Shown here piece after piece: positions 41,797 to 59,418 of a stretch of DNA of 64,000 nt. Within the stretch, counting starts at the first letter, position 1. Each line of letters begins with the position of its first letter. The stretch comes from an uncultured Roseburia sp. GTDB lineage: Bacteria; Bacillota; Clostridia; Lachnospirales; Lachnospiraceae. The position numbers were made by a program, and so were the translations under genes. The notes under the pieces are model-generated. The model was not told the origin of the DNA and ran no database searches. It saw only the letters and a program-made list of their open reading frames with translations. Location of the stretch: contig CALWHT010000058.1 of NCBI GenBank assembly GCA_944380515.1, positions 40,291-104,290 on the forward strand, written 5' to 3'.

Positions 41797-43128
41797 ATGA
41801 GCAAGACATTATATTTACACATCGGTCAGCCCAAGACCGGAACGAGTGCGTTGCAGGCATTTCTTTCCATGAACAGAGAATTGCTGAGGGAGAAGGGCGT
41901 GTACTATCCGGTGCTGGACGGAGATTATGCCGTTCGGGAGAAAAGGGGTACAATGTCCGGCAATGCGTTTAATCTGATAAAGCTGGCGTGCCCGTTAGAA
42001 CAGTTTGATATGACAAGGTCAGAATACGTGCGGAAAATAGAGGAGTTGCTTGCGCAGGATGATAAGATTCTTCTCTCATCCGAGTTGATGTGGGGGGGGG
42101 ATGGAGAAAACCTTGCACAAAAGATCTGTGCGAATCTAAAAACGTTGCTTGGAGATCGTGTCGTAATGAAAGTGATTGTGTATCTGCGAAGGCAGGATGA
42201 TTCCATGGAATCACAATGGAATCAACTGGTGAAAAACCGCTTATATACCCGAAGCTGTCAGACTTATGTGACAGAACATATTTGTAAATGTGATTATTCT
42301 ACACGTCTTTCTGCGATTGCAGAGGTTATCGGAAAAGAGAATATGATTGTAAAAATCTATGACAGTGGACGTTTTACAAATGGTAATGATATCTTTAAAG
42401 ATTTTCTGTCTGTATTTGAAATAGATGATATTTCTGATTTTAGGAAGCAACAGTTTCAAATAAATCCGTCTATGGGAAAAAGCTTGGTTGAAATCAAACG
42501 CATTTTAAATCAGATCCCTTCCAGTATGGTTCTGGAAGAAGAATTTCGGAAGTTTATGGTATTTGCGGAAAACGGAGAAAGGATTACAAAGGCCCCTTCG
42601 TTTCTCAGTTACGAAGAAAGGAAGGAAATACTGAGCACTTTTGAGGAGAGTAACTGTAGCCTTGGACGGGAATATTTTGGTATTGAAGCAAGCCCGTTTC
42701 CGCCTTTAGAGGAAAAGGAAGACGATGATGCCGAACAGAATATCTATGAGGACATTATTCGTTTCTTTGGTGGACTTTTCATTACGCAGGCAAAAGAAAT
42801 TGAACTGTTGCATGGGAAAATTGATCGGTTTCCTTTGCCGGAACGGGTTGCGCCTGGCAGCAGATTAATTGTATACGGCGCAGACAAAAGAGGGCGCAGG
42901 GTCTGGCACAGCTTAAAGAATGAGGCAAGGTATCAGCTTACGGGTTTTGTGGATCGGCGTTGGGCAAGGCTTTTAGAGGTCGAGGGCGAGTTGGAGGCTC
43001 CTGAAATTATTTTTGAGAAAACCTTTGATTATATTGTGATAGCGGTTGCCTCGGAGGAAGCTGCGGATGCGATTCGGGAATATCTGGAAACGTCGGGCAT
43101 TCTCGGAGAAAGAATCATCAGGGTGTGA
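41797..43128 (+). CDS. Sulfotransferase-like protein with C-terminal Rossmann-like module
   Basis: The 443-residue protein begins LYLHIGQPKTGTSALQ, which matches the PAPS-binding loop (PKTGTT type) of sulfotransferases. The IVYLRRQDDSMES stretch near residue 130 fits the second PAPS-binding region. The central part is less conserved. Residues about 351-443 form a separate module beginning RLIVYGADKRGRRV and ending in FDYIVIAVASEEAADAIREYL. Related modules are found in six other proteins of this window. Sulfation of bacterial glycans is known but uncommon in Gram-positive bacteria, so the family call is moderate and the substrate unknown. The ribosome site GCAGGAGGTAG is strong. Base composition becomes more AT-rich within this gene. 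Confidence 0.65.
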   Translation: MSKTLYLHIGQPKTGTSALQAFLSMNRELLREKGVYYPVLDGDYAVREKRGTMSGNAFNLIKLACPLEQFDMTRSEYVRKIEELLAQDDKILLSSELMWGGDGENLAQKICANLKTLLGDRVVMKVIVYLRRQDDSMESQWNQLVKNRLYTRSCQTYVTEHICKCDYSTRLSAIAEVIGKENMIVKIYDSGRFTNGNDIFKDFLSVFEIDDISDFRKQQFQINPSMGKSLVEIKRILNQIPSSMVLEEEFRKFMVFAENGERITKAPSFLSYEERKEILSTFEESNCSLGREYFGIEASPFPPLEEKEDDDAEQNIYEDIIRFFGGLFITQAKEIELLHGKIDRFPLPERVAPGSRLIVYGADKRGRRVWHSLKNEARYQLTGFVDRRWARLLEVEGELEAPEIIFEKTFDYIVIAVASEEAADAIREYLETSGILGERIIRV

Positions 43129-43178
43129 CGGCTGTTCCGGAAATCCTGGTTGTAAGAAATATAAGGATGGATTAAACA

Positions 43179-44357
43179 ATGTGTAATAACAAAATAGAAT
43201 TATCAGTGATTGTTCCGGTATATAATGTTGCGCCTTATTTGGAGCGATGTTTGGATAGTATTTTGAATCAGACATATTCAGTTGGTGAAATTATCTGCGT
43301 GGATGACGGCTCGACAGATTCCAGCCCGGATGTTTTAAAAAAATACAGTCAGCGGGAGTCCAGGGTTCGCGTTATCCATAAAGAAAATGGCGGTTTGGTC
43401 AGTGCCAGAAAAGCTGGAATTGCTGCAGCAAAAGGAGAATATGCCACATATGTAGATTCGGATGACTGGATTGAGAAAAATATGTATGAAGAGATGATGC
43501 TGGCAATGCGGGAGCATGATGCTGATATTGTGACCTCCGGTACAATACGTGATTACGGCACATATTGTGTGTCAGAGCCGGAGCATATCAGACCGGGAGT
43601 TTATCAGGGACAGAAATTAAAGAGAGAATTGCTGGCAAATATGATAGCAACCGATAGATTCTTTAAATGCAATATATCTCAGCATGTATATAATAAAATT
43701 TATAAAAGGGAATTGTTAAAAACATACCAGATGCTTGTGGATGATTATATTAATGTCGGGGAAGATGCGGCCTGCGCATTTCCGTGTCTATTGCATGCGG
43801 TAAAGGTGGTGGTAACAGGAAAAAATTATTATCACTATTGTCTCCGAAGCGACTCTATTATGGGAACGAAAAAAAAGGACGAATTAGAACGCCATTATGT
43901 GCTATTTGCTGCACTTGAGAAAGAGGGAAAACAGTGTGAAAAACAAATCCCGAATATTTTGTTGCAGTTCGATTTCTTACGCTATCATGATTTGTTATTA
44001 CAGCGTGCGGAACGGGTCATTCGGTTTGGGGCAGGGGAGCTTTTTCCATTCGGAAATCTGAACGAAAATGAAAAAATTGTTATATACGGCGCCGGTAAAT
44101 TCGGGATGGAATTAAAGCATCTGCTTGAGCACAGGTACCAGATTGCGGCGTGGATTGATAAGAGTCGAAAACCGGGGACACAGACTATTGATTATTTGGA
44201 GCGGATTTTATTTGATAAGATACTGATTGGTATTTTGGTGAGCGATGTGGTGGAAGAAGTCAAAAGGGAATTGGAACAGCGCCAGATTGATATGAAAAAA
44301 GTACTTTCGGTGGATTATCGTTTATTAATTAAAGACAGTGGTTTTCAACAATTGTGA
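43179..44357 (+). CDS. GT2 glycosyltransferase with C-terminal Rossmann-like module
   Basis: This is a 392-residue protein. Residues 1 to about 270 are a GT2 domain (LSVIVPVYNVAPYLERCL, CVDDGSTDSSPDVL, YVDSDDWIEKNM). Residues about 296-392 start with KIVIYGAGKFGMELKHLL, followed by an AAWIDKSRK turn, and match the module at the C-terminus of the gene before. The GT2 half should be a normal cytoplasmic transferase. The added domain has the GxGxxG pattern of a nucleotide-binding fold and may bind a nucleotide sugar or act as a docking unit. The start has AAGGATGG upstream. Confidence 0.8.
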   Translation: MCNNKIELSVIVPVYNVAPYLERCLDSILNQTYSVGEIICVDDGSTDSSPDVLKKYSQRESRVRVIHKENGGLVSARKAGIAAAKGEYATYVDSDDWIEKNMYEEMMLAMREHDADIVTSGTIRDYGTYCVSEPEHIRPGVYQGQKLKRELLANMIATDRFFKCNISQHVYNKIYKRELLKTYQMLVDDYINVGEDAACAFPCLLHAVKVVVTGKNYYHYCLRSDSIMGTKKKDELERHYVLFAALEKEGKQCEKQIPNILLQFDFLRYHDLLLQRAERVIRFGAGELFPFGNLNENEKIVIYGAGKFGMELKHLLEHRYQIAAWIDKSRKPGTQTIDYLERILFDKILIGILVSDVVEEVKRELEQRQIDMKKVLSVDYRLLIKDSGFQQL

Positions 44358-44400
44358 TATGCGATTCGGAAAGATGGATACCTTGAACAGGAGAAAGAGG

Positions 44401-45561
44401 ATGGATACGAAGAAATATGTGATTTTTGGAGCCGGGCAGATTGGAAGAATGGCGCTGGCGGAATATCGCGGGCAGATTGCCTTTTTTGTGGATAATAACA
44501 GAGAAATCCAGGGGAAAAAGCTCGATGGCGTGGAAATAAGATGCGTTGAAGAAATATTAAAAGAGAAAGACCGTTATCACGTCATTATTGCGAGCAGATC
44601 TCAGGAATTAATGGAAAAGCAGCTTCTGGAGCTGGGAATTACAGATTATGAGTTTTTTTTGGAAGGGGAAAATGCATATTTTCATACAGAAGAACTGATT
44701 TTTAATCCGTATTTGGATAATGAAGAAAGAGATATAACAGAACATCAGTGGAATGAAAATTTAAAGAGGAATCTTGCGCGCGAGACGGTGAATTATCGTG
44801 TGGAACAGCTTCAGGGGAAAGAAATTTTGTTTGATCATGTTGAAATAGAGACAATTAACCGCTGTAATGGGAGTTGTGATTTTTGTCCGGTCAGCGTGAA
44901 AAATGACATAAGGGAATATAAGGTTATGTCCAGAGCGCTGTTTGAGTGCATTATCAATCAGCTGGCGGATATAAATTATTCCGGAAAACTGGCATTGTTT
45001 TCAAATAATGAGCCTTTTCTGGATGAGGATATTGTGAGTAAGCATAAATATGCGAGGGAGAAGTTGCCGAATGCCAGAATGCATCTGTTTACGAATGGTA
45101 CGCTGTTGAAGCTGGAATGGTTTATTGAAATTATGGAATATTTGGATGAATTGATTATTGATAATTATCGCCAGGATTTGCAGTTGATACAGCCGTGTCG
45201 GGAGATTGCCGCATATTGTGAGGAACATCCGGAACTGAAAAAAAGAGTTACGATTGTTTTGCGCAAACCCCATGAGATTTTGAGTACGAGGGGTGGTGAT
45301 GCGCCAAACCGCAAGGAGATGATATCTTATGGGGAAGACCGTTGTGTTTTGCCGTATAAGCAGCTCATTATCCGTCCGGACGGAAAGGTATCATTGTGCT
45401 GTAATGATCCATATGGAAAAAACACTCTGGGAGATCTCACGAAGAATTCTATTCTGGAAGTGTGGAATAATGATAAATTTAAAATGGTACGAAAATGTTT
45501 GTATGAGGGAAGAAAAAACTGGAAACATTGTGAATTTTGCGATGCGTTTAGTTTGAGTTAA
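44401..45561 (+). CDS. Radical SAM/SPASM protein with N-terminal Rossmann-like module
   Basis: This is a 386-residue protein. Residues 1 to about 100 are the shared Rossmann-like module (YVIFGAGQIGRMALAEY, then IAFFVDNNREI). The radical SAM core starts with INRCNGSCDFCP, whose Cys155, Cys159 and Cys162 would bind the [4Fe-4S] cluster and SAM. A SPASM-type C-terminal cysteine set is visible (CVLPYKQL, SLCCNDPYG and the final HCEFC). A TNGTLL segment fits the core barrel. Radical SAM enzymes of this group make difficult chemical changes, for example epimerisation or dehydrogenation; in glycan loci the substrate is usually a sugar or alditol. The start at 44401 is set by GGAGAAAGAGG. Longer readings overlap the previous gene. 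Confidence 0.78.
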   Translation: MDTKKYVIFGAGQIGRMALAEYRGQIAFFVDNNREIQGKKLDGVEIRCVEEILKEKDRYHVIIASRSQELMEKQLLELGITDYEFFLEGENAYFHTEELIFNPYLDNEERDITEHQWNENLKRNLARETVNYRVEQLQGKEILFDHVEIETINRCNGSCDFCPVSVKNDIREYKVMSRALFECIINQLADINYSGKLALFSNNEPFLDEDIVSKHKYAREKLPNARMHLFTNGTLLKLEWFIEIMEYLDELIIDNYRQDLQLIQPCREIAAYCEEHPELKKRVTIVLRKPHEILSTRGGDAPNRKEMISYGEDRCVLPYKQLIIRPDGKVSLCCNDPYGKNTLGDLTKNSILEVWNNDKFKMVRKCLYEGRKNWKHCEFCDAFSLS

Positions 45562-45671
45562 TAGATTGGAGCAATGCAAGAATAAATTCTAAATGGAATA
45601 CGCCATGGAAAAAAGAAGAGAAATTACAGTGCCTGATTTGAGGCGTTATGAAGTGTAGAGAGGAAACGAGG

Positions 45672-46340
45672 ATGAAAGTAAAAGCATTGGTGGCAGTAAG
45701 ATCCGGGTCACAGAGAGTACAGAATAAGAATATCAGGCCTTTTGCAGGGAAAAGCTTGCTGGAAATCAAATTGGAGCAGTTGCTCAGCATAAAAATTTTG
45801 GATGGTGTGGTTGTCAACTCGAACGATCTCCAAATGCTGGAGATTGCGCAAAGGATGGGGTGTGAGACGGTCAAACGAGAAGAATATTATGCGTCGAATC
45901 AGGTTTCCATGTCTGAAGTCTACAAAAATATGGCGGAAAATTTTGATGGAGATGTCGTTGTATATGCCAATGTTACGAATCCGTTATTAAAAACATACAC
46001 AATCGAAAAAGCAATTGAAACGTATATGTTTCAATCAGAAGATTTTGATTCATTGAATTCAGCACATTTAATTAAAGAATTTTTATTTCAGGAGGGGCAT
46101 CCTATCAATTATGAGTTAAAAAAACAGCCAAGGAGCCAGGATTTGCCAGATATTTATGCATTAAATTTTGCGATTAATATTATTGAAAAGGAAAAGATGA
46201 TTCAATGTAAAAATGTTGTGGGGGAAAAACCATATATATGGAGAATTGATGAAATAGAGGCAACCGATATTGACAATCCGATTGATTTTGAATTTGCGGA
46301 GTATATATATACGCATCATGAAGATTACAAAAACAAATAA
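45672..46340 (+). CDS. CMP-sugar synthetase-like cytidylyltransferase, copy 1
   Basis: The 222-residue protein is related to acylneuraminate cytidylyltransferases: MKVKALVAVRSGSQRVQNKN holds the ARxGSxRxxxKN nucleotide-binding motif, followed by VVVNSNDLQML and YANVTNPLLKTYT. It should activate a sugar as a CMP or CDP derivative. No NeuB/NeuC, legionaminic or pseudaminic acid genes are in the window, so the sugar is unknown. The start at 45672 is supported by GAGAGGAAACGAGG and by the same start in its duplicate at 47763, with which it shares about four-fifths of its residues by eye. The 110 bases before it hold no other feature I can support. Confidence 0.75.
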   Translation: MKVKALVAVRSGSQRVQNKNIRPFAGKSLLEIKLEQLLSIKILDGVVVNSNDLQMLEIAQRMGCETVKREEYYASNQVSMSEVYKNMAENFDGDVVVYANVTNPLLKTYTIEKAIETYMFQSEDFDSLNSAHLIKEFLFQEGHPINYELKKQPRSQDLPDIYALNFAINIIEKEKMIQCKNVVGEKPYIWRIDEIEATDIDNPIDFEFAEYIYTHHEDYKNK

Positions 46341-46350
46341 GGAGCAAAGG

Positions 46351-47649
46351 ATGTATAAATTTGTATTGTGGGGATATGGGCAAAGGGGGAAAAGATTTTT
46401 AGAATTGTGCCCTAATGAGCATATCGTGGCTATTATTGACCAAAATTATGAAGAACTTAAAGTGTCTCAAGAAGATATACCTGTCATTTCCTATGAGGTA
46501 TACAAACAGGAATATATGCAATACGATATATTGATTACACCTCTTGAAAGTTACGACATTGAGGAAACACTGGGAAATGATGATATTTATACGTTTCATT
46601 TATTAAGAGACTGCCCTCCCGAACTTCTCGGTTTCTACGGTCCTAAATGGTTGAAGGATTTGCCCGTGAAAATAGATGACAAACAGCAGTATGTTATTTA
46701 TGGATTAAATATATACGCGCTGTTATTGCGTGACTATTTATGTAGAACATATGGACTGGAAAAACTTGAAATTGTTTCTGACATAAGTGACGAGAGAAAA
46801 AATGCAAAATTTCGTAAAAAGTATAAATTTATCAGAGAAAATAGATATTTTACTTTAAAGGAAGAAATTTTGAATGCTTCCGGGAGGGGAGATAATTCAG
46901 TTTTCGGAAGGACGAAAATACAGGAAGTTTTCGATTTTTTTGGGAAGATACCGGAATATAACGCACCGCAATTAATTAAATATAAAAATAAGTATGCGGG
47001 AGAACGATGCTTTATTATAGCGTCAGGGCCGAGCCTGCAAGTGGCGGATTTAGAAATTTTACACAAAAATAATTGTAAATGCATAGCTGTTAATAAAATT
47101 TATCTTTTGTTTCAAAATACAGAATGGAGGCCGGATATTTTTGTTGCGTGTGATCCGAAGATGGTTCAAAGTTCTTTGGAAGAAATAAAAAAGTGTGATG
47201 TAAAAGATAAGTTTATGTCAGATGTATATGAGGGGTTTAAAAACGGAGACGTTGATGGAATTAATAAATACCATTGTCATAGAATAAATTGCAAAAACCG
47301 TAAGCCTAAATTTTCAGATGATATTACAAAAGGAACATATGCAGAAGGCAGTGTGATATATGATTGTATTCAAATAGCAGTATATATGGGATTTAAGACT
47401 CTTTATATTTTAGGAGCCGATCATAACTATACAAGCAATCAAAGCGATAGTTCAAATCATTTTCATAAAGATTATTATAAAGGCATTCAAAATCCTAATA
47501 AATATATCAAGGAAGATGTGGAATGTGCATTTCAGGCAGCAAGGCAATATGCTGAAGCACATGGAATAAAGATTTATAACGCCACAAGGGGCGGAAAATT
47601 AGAAGTATTTGAGAGAGTTGATTTTGATTTGTTGTTTCCTCTAACTTAG
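46351..47649 (+). CDS. MptE-like (DUF115) protein with N-terminal Rossmann-like region
   Basis: This is a 432-residue protein. From about residue 215 on it resembles the 6-hydroxymethylpterin pyrophosphokinase MptE-like/DUF115 family, which also shows resemblance to sialyltransferase-type enzymes: GERCFIIASGPSLQVADL, CIAVNKIYLLF, RPDIFVACDPKM and TLYILGADHNY. In bacterial glycan loci this fold is thought to transfer nonulosonic acids or related sugars. The N-terminus (FVLWGYGQRGKRFLE, then AIIDQNYEE) is the shared Rossmann-like module, and a second weaker copy may start at YVIYGLNIYALLLRDYL near residue 115. It lies between two duplicate CMP-sugar synthetase genes, which fits use of a CMP-activated donor. 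GGAGCAAAGG defines the start. Confidence 0.7.
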   Translation: MYKFVLWGYGQRGKRFLELCPNEHIVAIIDQNYEELKVSQEDIPVISYEVYKQEYMQYDILITPLESYDIEETLGNDDIYTFHLLRDCPPELLGFYGPKWLKDLPVKIDDKQQYVIYGLNIYALLLRDYLCRTYGLEKLEIVSDISDERKNAKFRKKYKFIRENRYFTLKEEILNASGRGDNSVFGRTKIQEVFDFFGKIPEYNAPQLIKYKNKYAGERCFIIASGPSLQVADLEILHKNNCKCIAVNKIYLLFQNTEWRPDIFVACDPKMVQSSLEEIKKCDVKDKFMSDVYEGFKNGDVDGINKYHCHRINCKNRKPKFSDDITKGTYAEGSVIYDCIQIAVYMGFKTLYILGADHNYTSNQSDSSNHFHKDYYKGIQNPNKYIKEDVECAFQAARQYAEAHGIKIYNATRGGKLEVFERVDFDLLFPLT

Positions 47650-47724
47650 AATAGTAATTTTGACAAATTATATAGGCAGGAGATGGATTGAAGGATTCGG
47701 TTAATTGTAGGAGAAAGGAGAAAT

Positions 47725-47748
47725 CCAATTATTATTTAATATAATTGG
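47725..47748 (+). other. Perfect 8-bp hairpin between ribosome-site-like sequence and gene
   Basis: CCAATTAT and ATAATTGG form a perfect inverted repeat with an 8-base loop. A strong GTAGGAGAAAGGAG tract ends just before it, 42 bases ahead of the ATG at 47763. The hairpin is AT-rich and has no U-tract, so it is not a terminator. It could bring the ribosome site nearer to the start codon. Confidence 0.45.
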
Positions 47749-47762
47749 AATATAAGAAAAAG

Positions 47763-48431
47763 ATGAAAGTAAAAGCGCTAGTGGCAGTGCGGTCAGGTTC
47801 ACAAAGAGTGCAGAATAAAAATATCAGACCTTTTGCAGGAAGCAGTTTGCTTGAGATAAAGTTGTCTCAATTAATGAGCATTCGAAATCTGGATGGAATA
47901 ATCGTTAATTCCAATGATGATAGAATGCTTCAGATAGCAGAGAAAATGGGGTGTGAAACTGTAAAGCGCGATGAGTATTATGCGTCAAACGAAGTATCTA
48001 TGTCAGAAGTATATAAGAATATGGCAGAGAATTTTGACGGTGATATTGTGGTATATACAAATGTTACCAATCCACTGTTGAAAAGTTACACGATTGAAAG
48101 AGCAATAGAAACATATTTGCTTCAATCTGAGGACTATGATTCGTTAAATTCGGCTCATCTCATAAAGGAGTTTTTGTTTAAGGACGGACATGCTTTGAAT
48201 TATAATTTGGAAAAACAGCCCAGAAGCCAGGATTTGCCGGATATTTATGCTTTGAATTTTGCTATCAATATTATTGAAAAAGATAAAATGATTGAGTGTA
48301 AAAATGTAGTGGGGAAACGACCTTATATCTGGGGAATAGATGAAATAGAGGCAACTGATATTGACAATCCGATTGATTTTGAGTTTGCGGAGTATGTGTA
48401 TAGAAACTATGATGAATATAATAAGAAGTAG
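47763..48431 (+). CDS. CMP-sugar synthetase-like cytidylyltransferase, copy 2
   Basis: This 222-residue duplicate of the gene at 45672 has exactly the same length. It keeps the nucleotide-binding motif AVRSGSQRVQNKN, the NVTNPLLKSYT region and a nearly identical C-terminus (IDEIEATDIDNPIDFEFAEY). Differences are mostly conservative (Glu/Asp, Lys/Arg, Ile/Val), suggesting that both copies remain under selection. The reading could start at a TTG at 47745, which adds MEYKKK, but the paralogue supports the ATG. The ribosome site near the ATG is weak and the strong purine tract lies 42 bases upstream, beyond a hairpin. It is followed by a GT2 whose start is close to or overlapping its end. Confidence 0.75.
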   Translation: MKVKALVAVRSGSQRVQNKNIRPFAGSSLLEIKLSQLMSIRNLDGIIVNSNDDRMLQIAEKMGCETVKRDEYYASNEVSMSEVYKNMAENFDGDIVVYTNVTNPLLKSYTIERAIETYLLQSEDYDSLNSAHLIKEFLFKDGHALNYNLEKQPRSQDLPDIYALNFAINIIEKDKMIECKNVVGKRPYIWGIDEIEATDIDNPIDFEFAEYVYRNYDEYNKK

Positions 48432-48471: not shown

Positions 48472-49185
48472 ATGTTTTCAATAGTAACTGTGTGCTATAA
48501 TGTAAAGGAAAAATTAGAATATACGATAAATAGTGTATTGAGTCAGCAATTTAATAACTTTGAATACATTATTGTGGATGGTGCATCACAGGATGGTACA
48601 CATCAATTGTTAGAAAAATTACAATCTAATGATAAGATAAAAATAATATGTGAGTCGGATAAGGGACTGTATGATGCAATGAACAAGGGGATTCTTGCCA
48701 GTAGAGGTCAGTATATCATATTTATGAATGCTGGAGATGGTTTCGATAGTGAACGGGTTTTGAAAGATGTATCTGGGGTTTGTACAGATGCACCTCGCAT
48801 ATATTATGGAGTTTCCAAGGCAGTTTACCCGAATGGAAGGATTCGAAGTAATAGGATATTTGTGAGAAAACATAAAAATATGCTATATGATGTGTTTGAT
48901 GGTAAGATGCCCAATCATCAGGCTATTATAGCCAGTAGAGAATGTTTTGAAAATAATCTTTTCTCTGTGGACTATTCAATTGGAGCGGATTATGGATGGT
49001 TTGCAGAATGTATAAAAAGAGGGATAGTGGCTATACCAATTGATTTTTGTATTGCAAGATTTGAGGTTGGAGGAAGAAGCTCAAGACCGACTTCAAGAAT
49101 GAGTATGCGAAGGGAATATGAGAGTATATTGCGTCATAAGTTCCCGGTTCGATATAGGTGCTATAGGTTTTGGAATCCGAGGTGA
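48472..49185 (+). CDS. Glycosyltransferase family 2
   Basis: This GT2 protein of about 237 residues is of the short type seen in colanic acid and PGL loci: FSIVTVCYNVKEKLEYTI, YIIVDGASQDGT, ICESDKGLYDAMNKGI and IFMNAGDGF as the acidic motif. No membrane segment is seen. The start is uncertain. The ATG at 48472 begins directly at the GT2 fold but has only a weak ribosome site. In-frame ATGs at 48409 and 48412 overlap the previous gene and add a segment without family similarity. Its GT2 sequence is like that of the second domain of the protein at 57184. Confidence 0.75.
   Translation: MFSIVTVCYNVKEKLEYTINSVLSQQFNNFEYIIVDGASQDGTHQLLEKLQSNDKIKIICESDKGLYDAMNKGILASRGQYIIFMNAGDGFDSERVLKDVSGVCTDAPRIYYGVSKAVYPNGRIRSNRIFVRKHKNMLYDVFDGKMPNHQAIIASRECFENNLFSVDYSIGADYGWFAECIKRGIVAIPIDFCIARFEVGGRSSRPTSRMSMRREYESILRHKFPVRYRCYRFWNPR
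49179..49184 (+). promoter_or_regulatory. Ribosome binding site that favours a TTG start
   Basis: GAGGTG lies 6 bases before a TTG at 49191, while the GTG contained in it (49182) has no ribosome site of its own. This favours the TTG. Confidence 0.45.
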
Positions 49186-49190
49186 AAATA

Positions 49191-49664
49191 TTGACATATA
49201 TATTAGTTATAATAGGAGCTATGCTGTTTGGCGTTATGTTAGACAGATATATTTGTAATAAGGCTTTAGTTTCTTTAAAATCAGAGTTCAATAAATTTGA
49301 AAGTTTTTTCAGTATTTTGGAACAATGGCTTTCTAATAAGCAAAGCGATATTAAACTGGAAGAATATTTAGCGTCTCAAAAATATTGTAAAGTTGCAATT
49401 TATGGTATGGGCGTATTGGGTAATTTATTATATCAGGAGTTAAGAAATACGAGAATTCAGGTGAGTTATGCAATAGACAGGAATGGAGATGAAATGTATT
49501 TTGAAGTGCCGGTACTCAACCCGTCAGATGAATATGATGAAGTTGACGCAATTATTGTTACTGCAATATTAGATTATGAAAAGATAGGAGCCAATATTAA
49601 AAAAAAGACTCATGCGGATGTAATATCGCTGGAAGATGTCATTTATGGCGCAGCTGAAATGTAG
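49191..49664 (+). CDS. Membrane-anchored stand-alone Rossmann-like module
   Basis: The protein has about 157 residues. An N-terminal membrane segment (TYILVIIGAMLFGVML) is followed by a short helical linker and then, from about residue 65, the same module seen fused to larger enzymes nearby: KVAIYGMGVLGNLLYQEL, SYAIDRNGDEM and a VDAIIVTAILDYEKI strand. It ends in DVISLEDVIYG, closely matching the end of the 744-residue protein at 57184. It carries no catalytic domain, so it gives the clearest view of the module on its own, tethered to the membrane. GTG at 49182 is an alternative start. Function unknown; docking of glycan enzymes or nucleotide sensing are the obvious possibilities. Confidence 0.65.
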   Translation: MTYILVIIGAMLFGVMLDRYICNKALVSLKSEFNKFESFFSILEQWLSNKQSDIKLEEYLASQKYCKVAIYGMGVLGNLLYQELRNTRIQVSYAIDRNGDEMYFEVPVLNPSDEYDEVDAIIVTAILDYEKIGANIKKKTHADVISLEDVIYGAAEM

Positions 49665-51115: not shown

Positions 51116-51844
51116 GTGGGAAAGATTGCTTTGGAAGTAAATCATGTCAGTATTGATTATAAAAATTTAATACACATGTCGATGCATCAGAGTTTATTAA
51201 AGAAAAAGGAAAAAAAAGTAGATATTATCAGAGCAGTTGAGGATGTATCATTTTCCGTGGAACAAGGGAAAATTCTCGGTATTGTCGGACGAAACGGTTC
51301 TGGTAAGACCACATTGTTGCGTTCGATTGCGGGAATATTCAGGCCCGATGAAGGGACAATAGATACGAAGGGTAACCGTGTGTCATTAATGGCAATTGGA
51401 ATCGGCTTTAACCCGAATAACACGGGGAGAGAAAATATTTTGAAATCAGGAATGCTTCTGGGATGTGAGTTGGATTATGTCAAGGAGCATATGGAGGAAA
51501 TTATAGAATTTTCTGAATTGGGAGATTTTATTGAACGGCCGGTACGAACATATTCCAGTGGTATGTATTCGAAATTATCGTTTGCGGTTACAGCGATACT
51601 GGATACGGATATTATGCTGGTGGATGAAGTGTTAAGTGTTGGAGATGAGCATTTCAGGCAGAAAAGTTATAAAAAAATGGAAGAACTAATGATGAGTGAC
51701 CGCACAGTTTTAATTGTGTCACATGCGACAAATACATTAAAAAAATTCTGCAACCAGGTTTTATGGATTAATGATGGTAAATTTGTAAAACTGGGCGAAA
51801 CGGAAGCAGTATTGGATGAATATGAGGCATCCATGCAGTTATAG
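51116..51844 (+). CDS. ABC exporter ATPase (Wzt/TagH-like), second system
   Basis: This 242-residue nucleotide-binding subunit has GRNGSGKTT (from residue 58), YSSGMYSKLSFA as the ABC signature, LVDEVLSVGDEHF as Walker B, and VSHATN as the H-loop. Like the ATPase at 10058 it ends after the core and has no substrate-binding extension, but the two are clearly distinct proteins. The start is GTG with a perfect AGGAGG 5 bases upstream. It belongs with the extended permease before it. Confidence 0.87.
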   Translation: MGKIALEVNHVSIDYKNLIHMSMHQSLLKKKEKKVDIIRAVEDVSFSVEQGKILGIVGRNGSGKTTLLRSIAGIFRPDEGTIDTKGNRVSLMAIGIGFNPNNTGRENILKSGMLLGCELDYVKEHMEEIIEFSELGDFIERPVRTYSSGMYSKLSFAVTAILDTDIMLVDEVLSVGDEHFRQKSYKKMEELMMSDRTVLIVSHATNTLKKFCNQVLWINDGKFVKLGETEAVLDEYEASMQL

Positions 51845-51903
51845 TGCAGATAATATCTCACAAAAGAATTGTGAAACATAAATGTAAGTGTGAGGTAAAA
51901 AAG

Positions 51904-54900
51904 ATGTATGAACAAAAAAATATATTTGATAATCAAATAGTTGATTATATAAATGAAAGTAAGGAAGAATATCCTGACAGTATGCTTGAAAATTGCGATA
52001 ACTGGCAAGTATTTTATCATTTATCCAGTATGCGCAAGTCAATTCTGAACTGGTATGAATTTTATCCGGAGGCGAAAGTACTGGAAATAGGTGCAGGATT
52101 TGGGGCAGTTACAGGGGTTTTATGTGATAACTGCAGACACGTTACGGTTGTGGAAAAAAATCCTGTCAGGGCAAGTGCTATAGCAAGGCGGTATAAGCAG
52201 AGAAAAAACTTAGAAATTATTGTGGCAGATATCAATGAGTTTCAGTGTACTGAAAAGTATGACCATATTGTTATGCTTGGAATTTTTGAAAAAATATGCT
52301 GTTGTGATGGAAAAGAAAAATGTGATGACTTACTGAATAAATTTTATAGCTGGTTGACACCGGGAGGAAAATTGTTATTTACTGCGAATAACCGTGCCGG
52401 AATAAAGAATATATGCGGTTATATGGTTGAAGAGGAGTCAGGCAGCTTTGAGGGAGCAAACTCAGATTATTATTTTTATATTGATGAATTAAAGAAAGTC
52501 GTTGAAAATACAAAATTTCAAAGTTATAAAGTGTTTTATCCTTTGCCTGACTATAAATTGACACAGGCAGTATATACAGATGAGTTTCCACCCAAGGGAA
52601 ATATTGGGGACAGAGTGATTCCATATTATCCTTATAATAGAAAAAGGTATATGGATGATGTAAAGTTAAGTGAGAAGCTTGTTGAAAATGATATTTTTCC
52701 ATTTTTTTCAGATTCGTTTTTGTTAGAGTGCAGTGTGGACGAAAAAGTATCAGATATTATTTTTGCAGCTGTTTCAACAGATAGAGGGGAAGAACATGGT
52801 TTTGCAACCATAATAAAGCAAAATGAAGTAATCAAAAAAACTTTGAGTCCTCAAGGCACAGCGGCATTATTCGCTGCATATCATAATTGCGAAAATCTTA
52901 AACAAAGAGGAATTTCAGTTGTGCCTCAAAAATGGCAGAATGATGAAATCATAATGCCCCGTGTTCGCGAACAAAGCGCAATGAATCAGTTAATCTTATG
53001 GGTGGAAAGAAATCAAATTAATGAAATAAAACGGTTGTTTGAGAAAATATGGTTGAGTATCTTACAGTCTTCAGAGACTATAGATGCAGCAACGAATGAA
53101 TTGTTGAATAGAGAAAAAACATTTGATTGGGGGCCGATTTTGCAGTCTGCTTATATTGATATGGTTCCTATGAATTGTTTTTATATAAATGATCAGCTTT
53201 ATTATTTTGATCAAGAATTTAAAAAGGAAAAGTATCCGGCTAAATATGTTATGTTTCGGGCAATACGGTATTCTTATCTCTCGGCAGAGAAGTTGGAATC
53301 ATTGATTTCATTGGAGGCGATGAGAAATCATTTTGAAATATCGTCTGAAATGTGGGAATTCTTTTTGCGTTTAGAGGATGAGTTTATCGAAAAGAATCGT
53401 CGGCATAAAGAAAACCGTTTTTTTTACAGAATGGTTGAAAATAAGAATCATTTATTGACTGAAGAAGTGAAAGAAGAAACGGAGGCATTACATAGTAAGA
53501 ATGAGATAGAATATACAATTGGAGCAGGCTTTGGTGGACTTGAAAAAAATGGAGAACACGTATGGTATTGGGCTATTGAAAACAAGGCAGAAATATTTTT
53601 AAATAACATAGGAGATGAAAGATACTGCTATCTAAAATTTAGTTTAGTGCCACCACCAGGGAGGGAAAATCGAAAAGTAAAAGTATATCTCGATAACAAG
53701 GTCATAGCAAGGGAATTGGCACCTGCAAAGTGTGAAGTAAAGGTCTGTTTGCGAGAAAATCAAGCGCATAAATTGAGTTTTTGCAGCTTTGGAGAGAAAA
53801 CTACGGTGGAAGGAGACACAAGAGAATTCGCGTTTATGCTGCAAGACTTTAAAGTTTGTGAAGAACAAGAGGGTTATTTTGTTTCAACGCAGTTGCTGGA
53901 GGTGCAGGAAAGACAGTTAGAACTGTTGGGAGAATTTTTGAAAATATGTGACGTGCACGGACTTCAATACTATTTGGCATATGGTTCACTGCTTGGAGCA
54001 GTAAGAAACCACGGCATAATTCCTTGGGATGATGATGTAGATATTGTTATGCCCAGAGAAGATTATGAAATATTTTTAGAGAAAGCAGAGCATGAGCTTG
54101 GAGAAAATTATTTTATACAAACACCGGAGAATGATTTACAATGCTTTTATGGCGGATATGCTAAATTGCGAAGCGAAAAAGATTGTGCAATGGAAGAGGT
54201 TAATCTGGGACATCATTGCCATCAGGGGATTTGGATTGACATTATGCCTATGGATAATGTCGACAAGAACAATAAAAGAAGAAGAAAGCAAATCAACAAA
54301 ATTCAGTTTTATCAGGAAACAATTTTTGCCAAGACATATGGGGAATTTAAGCAGGGTGTAAGAGGCATAGAGTATCATAGATGGAATAGGCTGCGAATAT
54401 TGGGTAAGCTATTCTCGCAAAAATATTTGCGTAGAAAATTAAAGGAAGCTATTATTAAAGGAAATAAATTTCCTGCTGATGAGGTTGCAATTTATGCACA
54501 GTATACGGGGGAGAAAGGATTTGTTTTTCTGAGAAAATCCTGGTTAGAAAAAAGCATAACAGTTCAGTTTGAAACATTTGTAATGAAAATGCCACGGGAG
54601 TGGGAAAAGTGTTTGAAAGTAATGGAAGGAGAGGCGTATCAGGAACTTCCTTCACCCGACGAAAGAAAACCACATCATAAAGTATTTTATGATGTGGGAA
54701 CTTCGTATAAGGAATATCAGAAAAGATTTAACATTGATATACATGTTTTGAACCGCCGCGAACTGATTGTTTTGGGAGAGGGGGAAACCTTGGATGAGTT
54801 TTTAAAGCTTTATGCAGAAAAGATAAATATTGCTTTTTTGCTCAATGAGAGTAATTGGCGTGCAGGTACCATTTATAAGGGATACAAGATTGAAAATGTA

Positions 54901-55056
54901 GAAATTTTAAATGAAATCAATATAAAAAATTATAATTATGTGATTTGCAGTTCAATTTTTCGGGAAACGGAGAAATTATTGCAGCAGAACGATATAGAGG
55001 AGTACTATATATTTTTGGGGACAAAAAAATTTAAGGATGTCATTAATTGGGAATAG
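51904..55056 (+). CDS. Methyltransferase, beta module, LicD transferase and Rossmann-like module in one protein
   Basis: This is a 1050-residue multidomain protein. An N-terminal SAM methyltransferase carries VLEIGAGFGAVTGVL at residues 59-73 and VVEKNPVRA. A region to about residue 530 has unknown function. A beta-type module (about 536-655) matches the repeats of the protein at 59428 (VWYWAIENKAEIFLNN). A LicD-type domain (about 670-880) has YGSLLGAVRNHGIIPWDDD. A C-terminal Rossmann-like module (about 951-1050) starts RRELIVLGEGETLDEFL. LicD proteins transfer phosphocholine or, in related enzymes, other alditol-phosphates to glycans. The nucleotidyltransferase needed to make such a donor is encoded next. 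A methyltransferase and a LicD unit on one chain suggest two modifications of the same glycan end. GAGGT supports the ATG at 51904. Confidence 0.75.
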   Translation: MYEQKNIFDNQIVDYINESKEEYPDSMLENCDNWQVFYHLSSMRKSILNWYEFYPEAKVLEIGAGFGAVTGVLCDNCRHVTVVEKNPVRASAIARRYKQRKNLEIIVADINEFQCTEKYDHIVMLGIFEKICCCDGKEKCDDLLNKFYSWLTPGGKLLFTANNRAGIKNICGYMVEEESGSFEGANSDYYFYIDELKKVVENTKFQSYKVFYPLPDYKLTQAVYTDEFPPKGNIGDRVIPYYPYNRKRYMDDVKLSEKLVENDIFPFFSDSFLLECSVDEKVSDIIFAAVSTDRGEEHGFATIIKQNEVIKKTLSPQGTAALFAAYHNCENLKQRGISVVPQKWQNDEIIMPRVREQSAMNQLILWVERNQINEIKRLFEKIWLSILQSSETIDAATNELLNREKTFDWGPILQSAYIDMVPMNCFYINDQLYYFDQEFKKEKYPAKYVMFRAIRYSYLSAEKLESLISLEAMRNHFEISSEMWEFFLRLEDEFIEKNRRHKENRFFYRMVENKNHLLTEEVKEETEALHSKNEIEYTIGAGFGGLEKNGEHVWYWAIENKAEIFLNNIGDERYCYLKFSLVPPPGRENRKVKVYLDNKVIARELAPAKCEVKVCLRENQAHKLSFCSFGEKTTVEGDTREFAFMLQDFKVCEEQEGYFVSTQLLEVQERQLELLGEFLKICDVHGLQYYLAYGSLLGAVRNHGIIPWDDDVDIVMPREDYEIFLEKAEHELGENYFIQTPENDLQCFYGGYAKLRSEKDCAMEEVNLGHHCHQGIWIDIMPMDNVDKNNKRRRKQINKIQFYQETIFAKTYGEFKQGVRGIEYHRWNRLRILGKLFSQKYLRRKLKEAIIKGNKFPADEVAIYAQYTGEKGFVFLRKSWLEKSITVQFETFVMKMPREWEKCLKVMEGEAYQELPSPDERKPHHKVFYDVGTSYKEYQKRFNIDIHVLNRRELIVLGEGETLDEFLKLYAEKINIAFLLNESNWRAGTIYKGYKIENVEILNEINIKNYNYVICSSIFRETEKLLQQNDIEEYYIFLGTKKFKDVINWE

Positions 55057-55069
55057 AGGAGAGGATCAG

Positions 55070-55513
55070 ATGAAGTATAACAAGGGTTATTGTGCAGGAG
55101 TATATGATTTGTTCCATATTGGTCATGTAAATTTGTTCAGAAGGGCTAAGGAACAGTGTAATTATTTAATGGTTGGCGTACTGACCGATGAATTAGTGAT
55201 TCATTTTAAAAAGAACCCGCCATATGTTCCGTTTGAGGAACGCATTCAGATGGTAGAGGCGTGTAAATATGTGGATGAGGCGGTTCCGGTTACGTTTGAG
55301 ACAATTGGGAAAATTGACGCATGGGACAGATATCATTATGATGCATTTTTCTCCGGAGATGATTATGAGGGAAACCCGGTGTGGATGGAGGAAAAAAGGC
55401 TGCTAAATGAGAGAGGGTCGGATGTGATCTTTTTCCCTTATACCCAGACGACAAGCTCGACGAAAATTAAAAAGGCAATAGAAGCGCAGATAGGTGTCAA
55501 ACAAGATAAATAA
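55070..55513 (+). CDS. TagD/choline-phosphate-type cytidylyltransferase
   Basis: This 147-residue protein begins with GYCAGVYDLFHIGHVNLF, holding the HxGH motif, and ends with TSSTKIKKAI. Between these lie ERIQMVEACKYVDEAVPV and SGDDYEGNPVWMEEKR. The RYVDE-like segment and the CAGVYDLFH start are closer to choline- or ethanolamine-phosphate cytidylyltransferases than to the TagD at 12007. A CDP-choline or CDP-ethanolamine product would fit the LicD domain of the gene just upstream, while CDP-glycerol remains possible. The start follows GAGGAGAGGATC. The reading that begins at 55037 lies in the previous gene. Confidence 0.75.
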   Translation: MKYNKGYCAGVYDLFHIGHVNLFRRAKEQCNYLMVGVLTDELVIHFKKNPPYVPFEERIQMVEACKYVDEAVPVTFETIGKIDAWDRYHYDAFFSGDDYEGNPVWMEEKRLLNERGSDVIFFPYTQTTSSTKIKKAIEAQIGVKQDK

Positions 55514-55530
55514 AGAAAGGTAGAAGGTAT

Positions 55531-56616
55531 ATGAATATTGCATTGTTATATCCGACGAGGGAAAAAAACAGTACAGGAGTCCGTAATTTGACAAAAGGAA
55601 CGATTATCGAGACTCTAAAATACGATCATGAAAATACATATTTTTTGTCTGATGATGCATATTTTGATACGGACATGAAACCATTTTCGAATATTAAATG
55701 GGGAGGATATGAGCAGGAATGTATCAGATATGATTTCCTTTGTTACTGTAAGGACATTGATATTATTCATTCTTATTGGAATACATTTGATTTAATGCAG
55801 TCTAAATGTAAGAAGATTCTTACAATTCATGATTTGATTCCATTAATTCATCCGGAATGGCATACCATGAAAGATTATTTTGATGGATCCGTTCGCAGAA
55901 CGGCATTGATGTCGGATTTGATTTTGACTAATTCGGAATATACAAAGAGTGATGTGGTAAAATACTATAATATACCAGAAGAACGGGTGAAAGTGGTATA
56001 TCCTGGACTACTGCATACACTTGATTTTTCACATGATAATAAAGCGGTATTGGAAAAATTTAATATTAATGATGAATATATTATGTCAGTAAGTACAATA
56101 GAACCGCGAAAAAATTTAAGAGGGTTGATTAATGGTTTTATTGAATATAAACAGAAGCATAATGCGAGTAATCTGAAACTTGTTTTAGTTGGTGGAATTG
56201 GATGGGATAAGGAATTTGAAAATGATATTGCGAAACTCAATGAATATAGGAGCAGTATTGTACTTACCGGGTTTGTTACAGATGAGGAACTTTCTTCGCT
56301 ATACACACATGCACTTGCAATAGCCTATGTATCTTACTATGAAGGATTTGGATTACCGCTGCTGGAAGCCTTAACTGCGGGTAAAGCAGTAATATCTTCC
56401 AATACATCGTCTATGCCGGAAGTTTGCGGAGACGCAGCCTGCTATTGTGACCCTTATGATTTGGAATCTATCGGGAATGCAATTGAAATGGTAGTAACGG
56501 ACGAAACATATCGAAAACAGTTAGAAGGAAGGGCAAAAGGACAGGCTGCCAGGTTTTCATATGAAAAAGCGGCAAGGGAAACAGTAGAGATATATAATAG
56601 TTTAGGAGGCAAATAA
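55531..56616 (+). CDS. Glycosyltransferase family 4
   Basis: This 361-residue GT-B enzyme has ILTIHDLIPLIHPEW in the acceptor half, YIMSVSTIEPRKNLRGLI at the start of the donor-binding half, LVGGIGWDKEFENDI, and the paired glutamates in SYYEGFGLPLLEAL. These are typical of GT4 mannosyl-, rhamnosyl- or related transferases of O-antigen and capsule clusters. No membrane segment is seen. AAAGAAAGGTAGAAGG gives the ribosome site 17 bases after the cytidylyltransferase gene. Sugar specificity is unknown. Confidence 0.85.
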   Translation: MNIALLYPTREKNSTGVRNLTKGTIIETLKYDHENTYFLSDDAYFDTDMKPFSNIKWGGYEQECIRYDFLCYCKDIDIIHSYWNTFDLMQSKCKKILTIHDLIPLIHPEWHTMKDYFDGSVRRTALMSDLILTNSEYTKSDVVKYYNIPEERVKVVYPGLLHTLDFSHDNKAVLEKFNINDEYIMSVSTIEPRKNLRGLINGFIEYKQKHNASNLKLVLVGGIGWDKEFENDIAKLNEYRSSIVLTGFVTDEELSSLYTHALAIAYVSYYEGFGLPLLEALTAGKAVISSNTSSMPEVCGDAACYCDPYDLESIGNAIEMVVTDETYRKQLEGRAKGQAARFSYEKAARETVEIYNSLGGK

Positions 56617-57156
56617 GTGAGAGAAAGAAAAGAGATTGTAGATGAATTTGCTACTTTTATAAATCAGGAGATGCAAAATTGTATCGAACAAAATATAGAA
56701 TTTTCTGAACTGGCAGGATATAAAAAGATTTTGGTTCTTCAATCAGCGCCAGTTCATGTATTGCAGGATGTTTTAGGGAAAATATACAAGGCAAACGAAG
56801 ATATTCAGGTAATAATTGTTGGGCAGAACGCTTGTGAGAATCTAAAGGCGGTTTTTAAGGGAAAAAACATTGAACTGATAGTGCATGACAAATCATTTGG
56901 TGATGACGACTTTGCATTGTTGCAGCAGACCGAAGAAGAATATCAGCCGGAAGCGGTGTTATATTTCAATAATTTTGCAAGCTGCGTGGATTTTTCTAAT
57001 GTGGAGCACTTGCTATGGCCGGTTGAAAATAAAATTCCAATTTATAGTTATTCTTATGTCCAGCAGGAACTTAACAGACATACAAAATTGTCATATCATT
57101 TATATGGTTGTATTGTCTATAAAGATTTATTAGAGTGGTTTCGGACATTTAAATAG
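56617..57156 (+). CDS. Small protein of unknown function
   Basis: The 179-residue product has no motif I can name. Visible features are a mixed alpha/beta pattern with strands such as KKILVLQSAPVHVL, QVIIVGQNAC and AVLYFNNFASCVDF, no signal peptide and no membrane segment. The pattern of the second half (VEHLLWPVENKIPIYSY) resembles that of GT-B acceptor domains such as the heptosyltransferase-like group, so it may be a shortened relative without a donor-binding half; this is weak. It starts with GTG directly after the GT4 stop, with AGGAGG in the end of that gene, and sits among glycosyltransferases, so it is very probably expressed with them. Confidence 0.5.
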   Translation: MRERKEIVDEFATFINQEMQNCIEQNIEFSELAGYKKILVLQSAPVHVLQDVLGKIYKANEDIQVIIVGQNACENLKAVFKGKNIELIVHDKSFGDDDFALLQQTEEEYQPEAVLYFNNFASCVDFSNVEHLLWPVENKIPIYSYSYVQQELNRHTKLSYHLYGCIVYKDLLEWFRTFK

Positions 57157-57183
57157 ATGATTTTTGGAGGAGTACTGGTAAAT

Positions 57184-59418
57184 ATGAAAAAAATGTTATA
57201 TATAGGACACAGATATCACTTAAAAACCAAATCAAATAGTTTCTTTTTGAGTATATTAGAAAAAGAATATGAGATTACTTTCATTAGTTTTGACCCATAT
57301 TCTAACAAGTATGTGGGAGTGGACGAAGCCCAAAAGAGTAGGTACGATGTCCTTCTTACGTGGCAGATTATGCCGGATATGGATTTTTTACTTACCAATT
57401 TTCAGTTTGGGCAGGGAGTCGCTGTGCCTATGTATGATGCTATAGTGACCAAAGATTATGATCCCTGGCCGGAATATCGTGAATTTAAAATCATTTGTTT
57501 TTCAAAAACACTTCATGAGGAATTGATTCGCAGGGGATACAGATCGCATTATATACAGTACTTTCCAATGCCATGTGATACGGTGGAGTGGGGAAATGCA
57601 AAGTCTGTTTTTTTCTGGCAGCGTTTGGAGCGGATAAATGTGAACGTTGTTGCAAGGCTGTTGGAGAATATACAAGTGGAACATATTCATATACATAAAT
57701 CCTTGGATCCCAATCAGAAATTTGTTGAACCGGACAGCACTTTATGTAAAAAAATTACATATTCAGAATGGTTTGAGAATCCTTCTGATATGCATAGAAT
57801 TATGCAGGAATCAGCATTATATATTGCACCCAGATTATATGAAGGAATTGGGATGAGTTTTTTGGAAGCAATGGCAATGGGACGTTGTGTGATAGCGCCT
57901 AATTATCCGACCATGAACGAATATATAGTTAATGGGGTAAACGGAATTTTATATGATATGGATGATATTCAACCTGTCACAATTGATGATATACAGAAGA
58001 TTCAGAAGAATGCATTAGAGTTTATTAAGAATGGTTATCAGAAATGGGAAGAGAACAAAGATAATATTCTGAAGTGGATAGCTGAGGATATTGAACAGCC
58101 AATGGTCACGGTTGTTACGGTATGCAAGAATGTGTATAAAAGTGGAAGAGCAAATACTTTTGTCCAATGTATAGAGTCGGTGCATAATCAGATATATCCG
58201 AATATACAGCATTTAGTGATAGATGGGGCGTCAGAAGATGCCACTGTTAATATGCTGGATAAGTATAAAAGGCTGGGATGGCTCGAATATTTCTCTGAAC
58301 CGGATACAGGAATGTACGAGGCGATGAATAAGGGAATCAAGGCGGCGAAGGGCAAGTATATTGTGTTTTTAAACACAGACGATTATTTCCATAACCCCAA
58401 AGCTATCAGTGAATCTGTATATTCATTGGAAAATAGTCAGGCAGATTTTTCTTATGCTTCGAATCGGCTTCTTTCGGAAAATGGTGTTTGTGATTCAATA
58501 AGAAAACCGGAGATAGGAAGTTTTGTAGCACAGATGCCATTTTGCCATCAAACTATGTTTACGAAAAAAGATGTTCTTGTTGAAGTCGGGATGTTTAATG
58601 AAGAATATAAGAGTTCTGCTGATTATGATTTGGTTCTTAGGGTGATACTCGGGGGATACAAATATGTTGAAGTAGAGACGGATATCGTAACGTACAGAAG
58701 AGGAGGAGTTTCTGAAAGTCAGCAGCAGCGTGCCGATGAAGAAAAACGGAATATATTTAAGAGAGTATACAAAGAATATTATGATAAGGCTTCTTCAGAA
58801 GCTTTTGCCTGCCGGCTGGCGGGAAGAATTTGCCCGTTCCAGTTGTATGATAATCTACATGCATGTGTTTCTCCTGCTTTGCAGAAAGAAATGGAAAATG
58901 CAATTGTAGGTGAGGATAAGGAAAAACAGGTTTATTATTTCCCGGAAGAAATTGTAGTTCCTACAGACAAGCGATTTGTGGATGGGACGGTGGTGACAGG
59001 AACCAGTAATGTGGGGAGTATGGCCACAAAGGCAAGAGAAGAAAGATTGAACAAGTTTATAAAGTATTTTGCATTATTGGATCGTTGGCTGTGGCTGAAA
59101 TTGCAAAATAAGAGTATAGGAAGTTACTTTGAAAAAAGAAATTATCAGACAATTGCGATATACGGTATTGGGGAGATTGGAAACAGACTATATGAAGAAT
59201 TATCAAGATTTACATCTATTAAAGTGGAATATGCTATCGATAGAGTAAAAGAGGAGCACCCGGTACTGCCGATTTACAGCTTAGAGAGCGAGTTCCCCGA
59301 AGTAGATGTGATCGTTGTTTCAACAAATAATATTTTTGATCAGATTCTTGAAATCTTAAAAGAAAAAACAAAAATACCGATTGTCTCAATTGATGATGTT
59401 ATATTTGATGTTGAGTAA
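57184..59418 (+). CDS. GT-B and GT2 glycosyltransferases fused, with C-terminal Rossmann-like module
   Basis: This is a protein of about 744 residues in three parts. Residues 1 to about 290 are a GT-B-like transferase of the spore-maturation CgeB/GT1 type (RLYEGIGMSFLEAMAMGRCV, then NEYIVNGVNGILY). About 305-560 is a GT2 domain (VTVVTVCKNVYKSG, HLVIDGASEDATV, SEPDTGMYEAMNKGI, VFLNTDDYF). About 653-744 is the shared module (TIAIYGIGEIGNRLYEEL, VEYAIDRV and the ending PIVSIDDVIFDVE). Two sugars could be added in sequence by one protein. The start at 57184 has GGAGGAG 12 bases upstream; the ATG at 57157 is an alternative with no ribosome site. The module is most like the stand-alone protein at 49191. 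Confidence 0.75.
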   Translation: MKKMLYIGHRYHLKTKSNSFFLSILEKEYEITFISFDPYSNKYVGVDEAQKSRYDVLLTWQIMPDMDFLLTNFQFGQGVAVPMYDAIVTKDYDPWPEYREFKIICFSKTLHEELIRRGYRSHYIQYFPMPCDTVEWGNAKSVFFWQRLERINVNVVARLLENIQVEHIHIHKSLDPNQKFVEPDSTLCKKITYSEWFENPSDMHRIMQESALYIAPRLYEGIGMSFLEAMAMGRCVIAPNYPTMNEYIVNGVNGILYDMDDIQPVTIDDIQKIQKNALEFIKNGYQKWEENKDNILKWIAEDIEQPMVTVVTVCKNVYKSGRANTFVQCIESVHNQIYPNIQHLVIDGASEDATVNMLDKYKRLGWLEYFSEPDTGMYEAMNKGIKAAKGKYIVFLNTDDYFHNPKAISESVYSLENSQADFSYASNRLLSENGVCDSIRKPEIGSFVAQMPFCHQTMFTKKDVLVEVGMFNEEYKSSADYDLVLRVILGGYKYVEVETDIVTYRRGGVSESQQQRADEEKRNIFKRVYKEYYDKASSEAFACRLAGRICPFQLYDNLHACVSPALQKEMENAIVGEDKEKQVYYFPEEIVVPTDKRFVDGTVVTGTSNVGSMATKAREERLNKFIKYFALLDRWLWLKLQNKSIGSYFEKRNYQTIAIYGIGEIGNRLYEELSRFTSIKVEYAIDRVKEEHPVLPIYSLESEFPEVDVIVVSTNNIFDQILEILKEKTKIPIVSIDDVIFDVE

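Follow-up and report, generated by a model that had tools for sequence, protein, structure and literature searches.

A small Rossmann-like module on many glycan enzymes of Lachnospiraceae, also found by itself on a membrane helix: a possible common plug for pathway sensing or assembly

Seven otherwise unrelated glycan proteins encoded in one stretch of an uncultured Roseburia genome carry the same small module. The stretch, referred to here as the window, comprises 64,000 nucleotides of contig CALWHT010000058.1. Judged by its sequence, the shared segment of about 90 residues is homologous in all seven, a mini-Rossmann domain that belongs to the group of CoA_binding_3, PglD_N and C2185-like_N. 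Studied relatives of this kind bind nucleotides. That the module sits on many enzymes, and by itself behind a membrane helix, suggests a shared plug through which the pathway may be sensed or assembled. The seven copies, all on the plus strand, are the following (window coordinates, with E values from a profile that held no window sequence; GT, glycosyltransferase).

42856..43122, plus strand: C-terminal module, residues 354-442 of the sulfotransferase-like protein 41797-43128; E 2.6e-13; second loop Gly replaced
44061..44318, plus strand: C-terminal module, residues 295-380 of the GT2 protein 43179-44357; E 1.9e-14; motif IYGAGKFGM and AWIDK
44404..44658, plus strand: N-terminal module, residues 23-107 of the radical SAM/SPASM protein 44338-45561; E 3.2e-23
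46348..46584, plus strand: N-terminal module, residues 27-105 of the MptE-like protein 46270-47649; E 1.3e-13
49170..49664, plus strand: module without a fused enzyme, residues 71-159, preceded by an N-terminal hydrophobic helix; E 1.7e-16
54754..55023, plus strand: C-terminal module, residues 971-1060 (approximate), of the methyltransferase-LicD protein 51844-55056; E 7.7e-8 (search without filters); strand 2 not followed by the usual Asp
59005..59400, plus strand: anchor-type module with pre-helix at the C-terminus (residues 617-748) of the GT-B/GT2 fusion 57157-59418; E 3.8e-14

The detection profile was built from 165 module segments of other genomes, which had been recruited by an iterated search that window segments had seeded. 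For this, relatives were gathered from 60 genomes, the window's own included (26 of the 60 had a module match), the surrounding DNA was fetched, and the profile was iterated and then rebuilt without the window. Searched with the HMMER filters off against the 378 stop-to-stop window open reading frames (ORFs) of at least 60 residues, it found exactly the seven named proteins and no other convincing ORF. The best non-member reached an E value of 0.0059 (best domain 0.12), and the best of 1,890 shuffled ORFs reached 3.2. Other Rossmann-type proteins of the window scored 0.034 (epimerase, 33997) and 0.086 (fusion, 37028); on these values and that of the best non-member, a chance likeness of Rossmann motifs was rejected. 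Default filters recovered six of the seven proteins with the same profile; the LicD copy, which they miss, is therefore the weakest. Taken alone as seed and iterated over the fetched loci, the LicD copy led to 478 domains, of which 469 lay on proteins that the general profile also finds. Pairwise similarity among the seven segments was weak except between 49170 and 57157 (4e-17; 57 bits). In the fusion 57157 the general profile set the boundary at 661-748, and the anchor profile spanned 617-751 with 134 bits. A degenerate second stretch in the MptE-like protein (about 141-173, E 1.9) was not significant.

The seven copies lie within 16.5 kb of the 3.07-Mb genome (contig 58, 83149-99663), and the sole further match below 0.05 in the whole genome was a 234-residue, Rex-sized ORF (E 7.7e-5). 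A sequence-only reading of the window had proposed one homologous Rossmann-like module on these seven proteins and none on the upstream enzymes. Both proposals are borne out, the first by the window-free profile together with a structure model of the 49170 product. That reading had also placed all seven in an AT-rich downstream part, which is roughly right (G+C content 0.49 between 40 and 42 kb, 0.41 between 42 and 44 kb, and 0.33-0.39 past 46 kb). It was correct on the presence of the LicD module and less so on its position, given as 951-1050, where the profile gives about 971-1060.

Close relatives of the sulfotransferase-like, GT2, radical SAM, MptE-like and stand-alone proteins keep the module where it is in the window. 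The name "sulfotransferase-like" is a label given by eye: neither the protein nor its close relative in locus L010 had a Pfam family, and the sulfotransferase-like part had no PDB match. That relative (472-1788) is full length, with the module in the same position (E 1.8e-82). Full-length relatives of the GT2 protein 43179 likewise keep the module in place, and those of the radical SAM protein carry it at the N-terminus in L033, L070 and L075.

No curated Pfam or NCBIfam model exceeded its cut-off on any of the seven segments, and the possibility that each is a separate, well-known domain was rejected on that ground. PglD_N (PF17836) was the best Pfam match across the GT2 module (E 0.0029), reaching 18.6 bits there and 12.9 on the radical SAM protein against a cut-off of 23.4; it was unlisted for the other five. 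CoA_binding_3 (PF13727) was unlisted for all seven at E values up to 1. It exceeded its cut-off in five dehydratases, all of which fell inside the iterated module profile. The kinship became clearer at the profile level. The general-module profile (alignment A9) matched the PDB structures 3nkl (UDP-D-quinovosamine 4-dehydrogenase, 5.3e-11), Rex (8e-9), 2g6t (3e-7), WbaP (3.2e-5) and VioB (7.8e-5). Profile-profile comparison with recognised CoA_binding_3/PglD_N superfamily members was significant, at a probability of 97%. The modules also show the Rossmann fold, with the glycine loop after strand 1 and an acidic residue after strand 2, in the 49170 model and in the conservation pattern of 418 modules. 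PglD-type domains had been named earlier as the nearest fold. PglD_N is indeed among the kin, through the weak Pfam matches on two of the seven and the sequence match to VioB. The module is also related to Rex domains, which reflects general Rossmann kinship and not a common function. The product of 49170, the sole copy modelled, gave a predicted local distance difference test score (pLDDT) of 95.9. Foldseek matches of the whole model were weak, with one hit at E up to 0.001 (an O-methyltransferase, 9.7e-4) and template-modelling scores of about 0.4.

The set of 418 modules, used for conservation, motif, nearest-module and divergence counts, lacks the LicD copy, which default filters lose. In this set G11 was kept in 97% of copies, G13 in 79% and D36 in 82%. 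Conservation was concentrated at core positions and at the expected nucleotide or ligand edge, as placed from the topology. The general kind of module usually has both the GxG and the Asp. In the window the full motif is complete in five of the seven copies; the sulfotransferase-like protein lacks the second Gly and the LicD protein the Asp.

Across Lachnospiraceae the module is now a promiscuous accessory part of soluble glycan-assembly enzymes. At least five module matches (E up to 1e-4) were present in 49 of 250 Lachnospiraceae genomes, here called module-rich. These counts are lower bounds, with at most 21 candidates scored per genome; modules of the anchors themselves are counted in them, as are lone Rex-like or dehydratase matches. 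In a class-wide sample of 293 genomes, 136 had no match; among those listed, at least five matches (E up to 1e-6) occurred in 8 of 13 genomes of the same family and in six of other families. A scan of named genomes for the anchor kind of module, described below, gave 37 loci with 272 module ORFs. Of these loci, 31 bear the name Lachnospiraceae or that of a genus which we assign to it, and one is from Gemmiger formicilis (Oscillospiraceae). Because these loci (L064-L100) were fetched through the anchor, their module density is not that of all genomes. With L100, a near-copy of L070, omitted, 263 of the 535 genes of at least 130 residues in the remaining 36 loci bore the module, as did 203 of 445 complete genes when the transmembrane anchors were excluded. 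Enrichment of the module beside the anchor was considered and rejected (neighbours 39/92 vs 203/445). A phylum-wide sample had the anchor in 3 of 299 genomes, one of them outside the family, where 7 of the 19 genes of its locus (L120) carried the module. Ten further anchor loci, hand-chosen from the genome samples, held one to nine module genes each; L121 had none beyond the anchor, and L124 is, judged by length, the L067 contig again. The anchor found no match in phage and plasmid collections.

The anchor kind is distinguished by a helix that precedes the module (the pre-helix) and contains an invariant Trp. Some copies stand by themselves, in most cases after a hydrophobic helix, and others are joined to enzymes; the fused chains listed resemble, by eye, enzymes of WbsX and PIG-L type, and the window fusion 57157 also carries this kind. 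The earlier suggestion of a stand-alone copy behind a membrane anchor (at 49191, here 49170) proved sound: 49170 encodes a hydrophobic helix plus the module and belongs to a real conserved family. Its model shows a helix at residues 2-58, with the Trp invariant in the 51-member family alignment (A8), and a short helix at 63-69. The 36 loci contained 55 stand-alone copies, 47 with an N-terminal hydrophobic stretch and 8 without. Of the 250 Lachnospiraceae genomes, 33 had an anchor-type module, whether alone or fused (at most 14 candidates scored per genome), and 30 of these 33 belong to the 49 module-rich ones (Fisher 1.5e-22). The association remained after subtraction of the anchors' own matches, at a threshold of four (30/33 vs 27/217; Fisher 9.8e-20). 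The transmembrane stand-alone copy itself, defined as an ORF of up to 215 residues with a match from model position 12 or earlier and no internal stop, was found in 18 genomes, 17 of them module-rich. It is a conserved family tied to module-rich genomes. Among the candidates scored it was not found in 32 of the 49, which speaks against 49170 as a universal anchor, and the general anchoring role once assigned to it was not upheld. The lack of enrichment beside the anchor, and the equal likeness of modules within and between genomes, tell against that role as well.

The partners of the module are diverse. By our count, which excludes two Rex-like members, they cover about 28 Pfam families among those listed, some of which share folds. 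The scans took in 163 module proteins at 1e-3 and 196 at 1e-5, with the first 25 families of each listed; five dehydratases were omitted from the profile and from these scans, and Rex-type and acetyltransferase-type proteins were kept in the scans. The families were GT2, GT4, several methyltransferase models, FkbM, TylF, Caps_synth, GT32-type, GT-D, WbsX, RgpF, LicD, CDP-glycerol transferase, pyruvyl transferase, MptE-like, radical SAM, WcbI, cytidylyltransferase, TupA-like ATP-grasp, PIG-L, sulfotransferase, DUF1919, DUF4422, DUF5672, DUF268, NKWYS, TOD1/MUCI70 and TIM barrel, together with hexapeptide transferases that are probably ordinary PglD-type proteins. When the 196 module proteins were compared with a random 142 of the 224 module-less genes, GT2 enzymes of the anchor loci mostly had the module (PF00535, 51 vs 14) and GT4 enzymes mostly did not (PF13692, 12 vs 24; Fisher 1.2e-5). 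The carriers are soluble: a transmembrane-like segment appeared in 10 of 319 module proteins longer than 230 residues, five of these being dehydratases and none a fused carrier of the window. Such segments did not explain which GT2 enzymes have the module (2 of 34 module-less vs 1 of 81 module-bearing). In 79 of 81 GT2 carriers the module follows the GT domain, and some homologous GT2 enzymes have none. Several proteins (in L037, L038, L044, L060, L066 and L085) contain two modules per chain and would be natural candidates for module-module contact.

The module looks like an old, mobile accessory domain. The nearest module sat on a homologous partner in 207 of 348 cases, compared with 6% for random pairs, and on a non-homologous partner in the other 141. 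Among the non-homologous nearest pairs was a switch of the module from the N- to the C-terminus inside one locus. In all six identity bins the module was less conserved than its partner (for example 28.5% vs 43.6%), which indicates that it diverges faster, with the caveat that local alignments favour the partner.

For the function of the module, our tentative preference is a nucleotide-responsive self-association module that is sometimes membrane-tethered. The domain would hold a nucleotide, either a uridine nucleotide or an NAD-like one (NAD, nicotinamide adenine dinucleotide), at the glycine loop and the Asp that ends strand 2. Copies would associate with one another and thereby gather the enzymes that work on one growing glycan, with the nucleotide state tuning them. 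In roughly one third of the module-rich genomes (17/49), the window genome included, the hydrophobic helix of the stand-alone copy could insert into the membrane, and the copy, as 49170 might here, could recruit and tether such assemblies. This preference draws on the conservation of the ligand edge and on WbaP, whose CoA_binding_3 domain, according to the structure report (PMC10942596), is stabilised by uridine mono-, di- and triphosphate (UMP, UDP and UTP). There UMP inhibits the full enzyme with a half-maximal inhibitory concentration of 4.1 uM, and most inter-chain (dimer) contacts lie within this domain, the dimer being formed by a β-hairpin. For a myxobacterial relative without the hairpin, modelling points to promotion of the dimer by a partner protein (PMC12802240). 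Together these points lead us to favour self-association, with the anchor as a tether where it is present.

The sequence-only reading had offered a common ligand or a docking role. A common ligand is plausible by sequence and analogy, in view of the conserved edge; nothing among the results of this analysis pointed to a lipid carrier, one of the ligands it had named. A docking role is suggested by the stand-alone copies, and the signs that bear on it, namely these copies and the co-occurrence of anchor and module, are indirect. Several observations weigh on the other side. The full GxG-plus-Asp motif was complete in 252 of the 418 copies, and the exposure of the conserved positions was assigned through topology, not coordinates. 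Among anchor-type stand-alone copies just 15 of 53 kept the second Gly, though 49170 retains it, and the anchor-type profile had no significant PDB match (best 0.03; 3nkl 0.33). The 49170 model has no strands corresponding to the WbaP dimer hairpin. Concerted evolution within a genome was rejected, since mean module identity was 0.1995 within and 0.1983 between genomes, and thus no locus-specific homotypic code is visible. The frequent absence of the transmembrane copy from the matches in module-rich genomes is the main reason for caution. A bolder form, which we consider doubtful, would make the module a universal plug, with interchangeable nucleotide-gated copies joining dozens of soluble glycan enzymes and a glycine-rich membrane helix plus plug serving as membrane receptor. 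If so, glycan loci could gain or swap enzymes simply by fusion to the plug.

The same evidence can be read without any docking between proteins. The module might act only in cis, binding UMP, UDP or NAD(H) to regulate or stabilise its own fused enzyme. This is a possible reading and nearly as good as the favoured one. It fits the conservation pattern over the 418 modules, the tendency of the nearest module to sit on a homologous partner and the failure to find a transmembrane anchor in most module-rich genomes. Rex structures with NADH and NAD+ were among the best fold matches of the module, and the studied WbaP relative senses uridine nucleotides (PMC10942596). The 55 stand-alone copies, of which 8 lack a hydrophobic stretch, offer no fused enzyme for regulation in cis, and for this reason mainly we prefer action in trans.

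Two further explanations appear improbable, the second a little more so. The module might be a neutral hitch-hiker, a recombination-prone domain that does little by itself and was distributed through shuffling within the loci. Such a history would account for its lower conservation than the partner, the 141 nearest modules on non-homologous partners, the GT2 homologues without it and the many incomplete motifs. It sits poorly with the retention of G11 and D36 among very divergent copies, the consistent placement after the GT domain and the conserved stand-alone family. Alternatively, the module might bind the nucleotide diphosphate sugar (NDP-sugar) donor of its fused enzyme. PglD-type N-terminal domains bind NDP-sugar, VioB is a sequence relative, and PglD_N gave the best, sub-threshold Pfam match on the GT2 module. 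The partners, however, include LicD, pyruvyl- and sulfotransferases, PIG-L and radical SAM proteins, which are not known to use NDP-sugar donors. Moreover, families that make NDP-sugars, Epimerase (8) and DegT (6), appeared in the random 142 module-less genes but, at an equal cut-off, not among the families listed for the 196 module-bearing proteins.

Other genes of the window showed further features. A second shared module of about 120 residues occurs in tandem in the GT2 protein 59428-62139 (three strong copies at residues 423-778, plus an incomplete copy that matches less well), and a single copy is present in the methyltransferase-LicD protein (residues 557-629, E 6e-5). Relatives of the methyltransferase part of the latter have the Rossmann-like module mid-chain, and one (L043 5144-7369) has a cytidylyltransferase domain after it; in the window (51844-55513) the module comes after LicD, and the cytidylyltransferase is encoded separately, by the gene that follows (55037). 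Paralogous cytidylyltransferases (45648-46340 and 47745-48431; 182 identical of about 230 residues) flank the MptE-like gene. Upstream of the module genes lie, by eye, a cytidylyltransferase/oxidoreductase-like fusion (37028-38398) and a glycerophosphodiesterase/phosphoesterase-like fusion (38402-40465). A PDB search with the 62149 product gave no match.

The literature search, judged by title or the start of the abstract, gave no description of the module in these loci, and the known relatives differ from it in what surrounds the domain. Rex joins its Rossmann domain to a preceding DNA-binding domain, and none was listed over the Pfam cut-off for the seven proteins. C2185-like_N (PF22674), presumably named after the protein of structure 2g6t, is a narrow model that covered 3 of 85, 6 of 114 and 2 of 82 scanned proteins, was not among the families listed in a fourth scan, and covered none of the seven in the window. 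The PglD_N domain of sugar acetyltransferases is alike in fold and motif, whereas the window modules have no attached acetyltransferase. Known CoA_binding_3 domains follow membrane helices in WbaP and PglF-like NDP-sugar dehydratases. Here the carriers are mostly helix-free with the module usually near one chain end, and 49170 has one hydrophobic helix instead of the four-helix transmembrane bundle that precedes the domain in WbaP. The module also offers a handle for recognising gut Lachnospiraceae glycan genes that current family libraries leave unnamed. The authors of the WbaP structure called a domain common to two functionally unrelated enzyme classes "puzzling" (PMC10942596). Here a related module occurs on some 28 partner families and, in the loci examined, on nearly half of all genes, plus free copies of membrane and soluble type, and the puzzle becomes directly testable on small domains, module against module and module against nucleotide.

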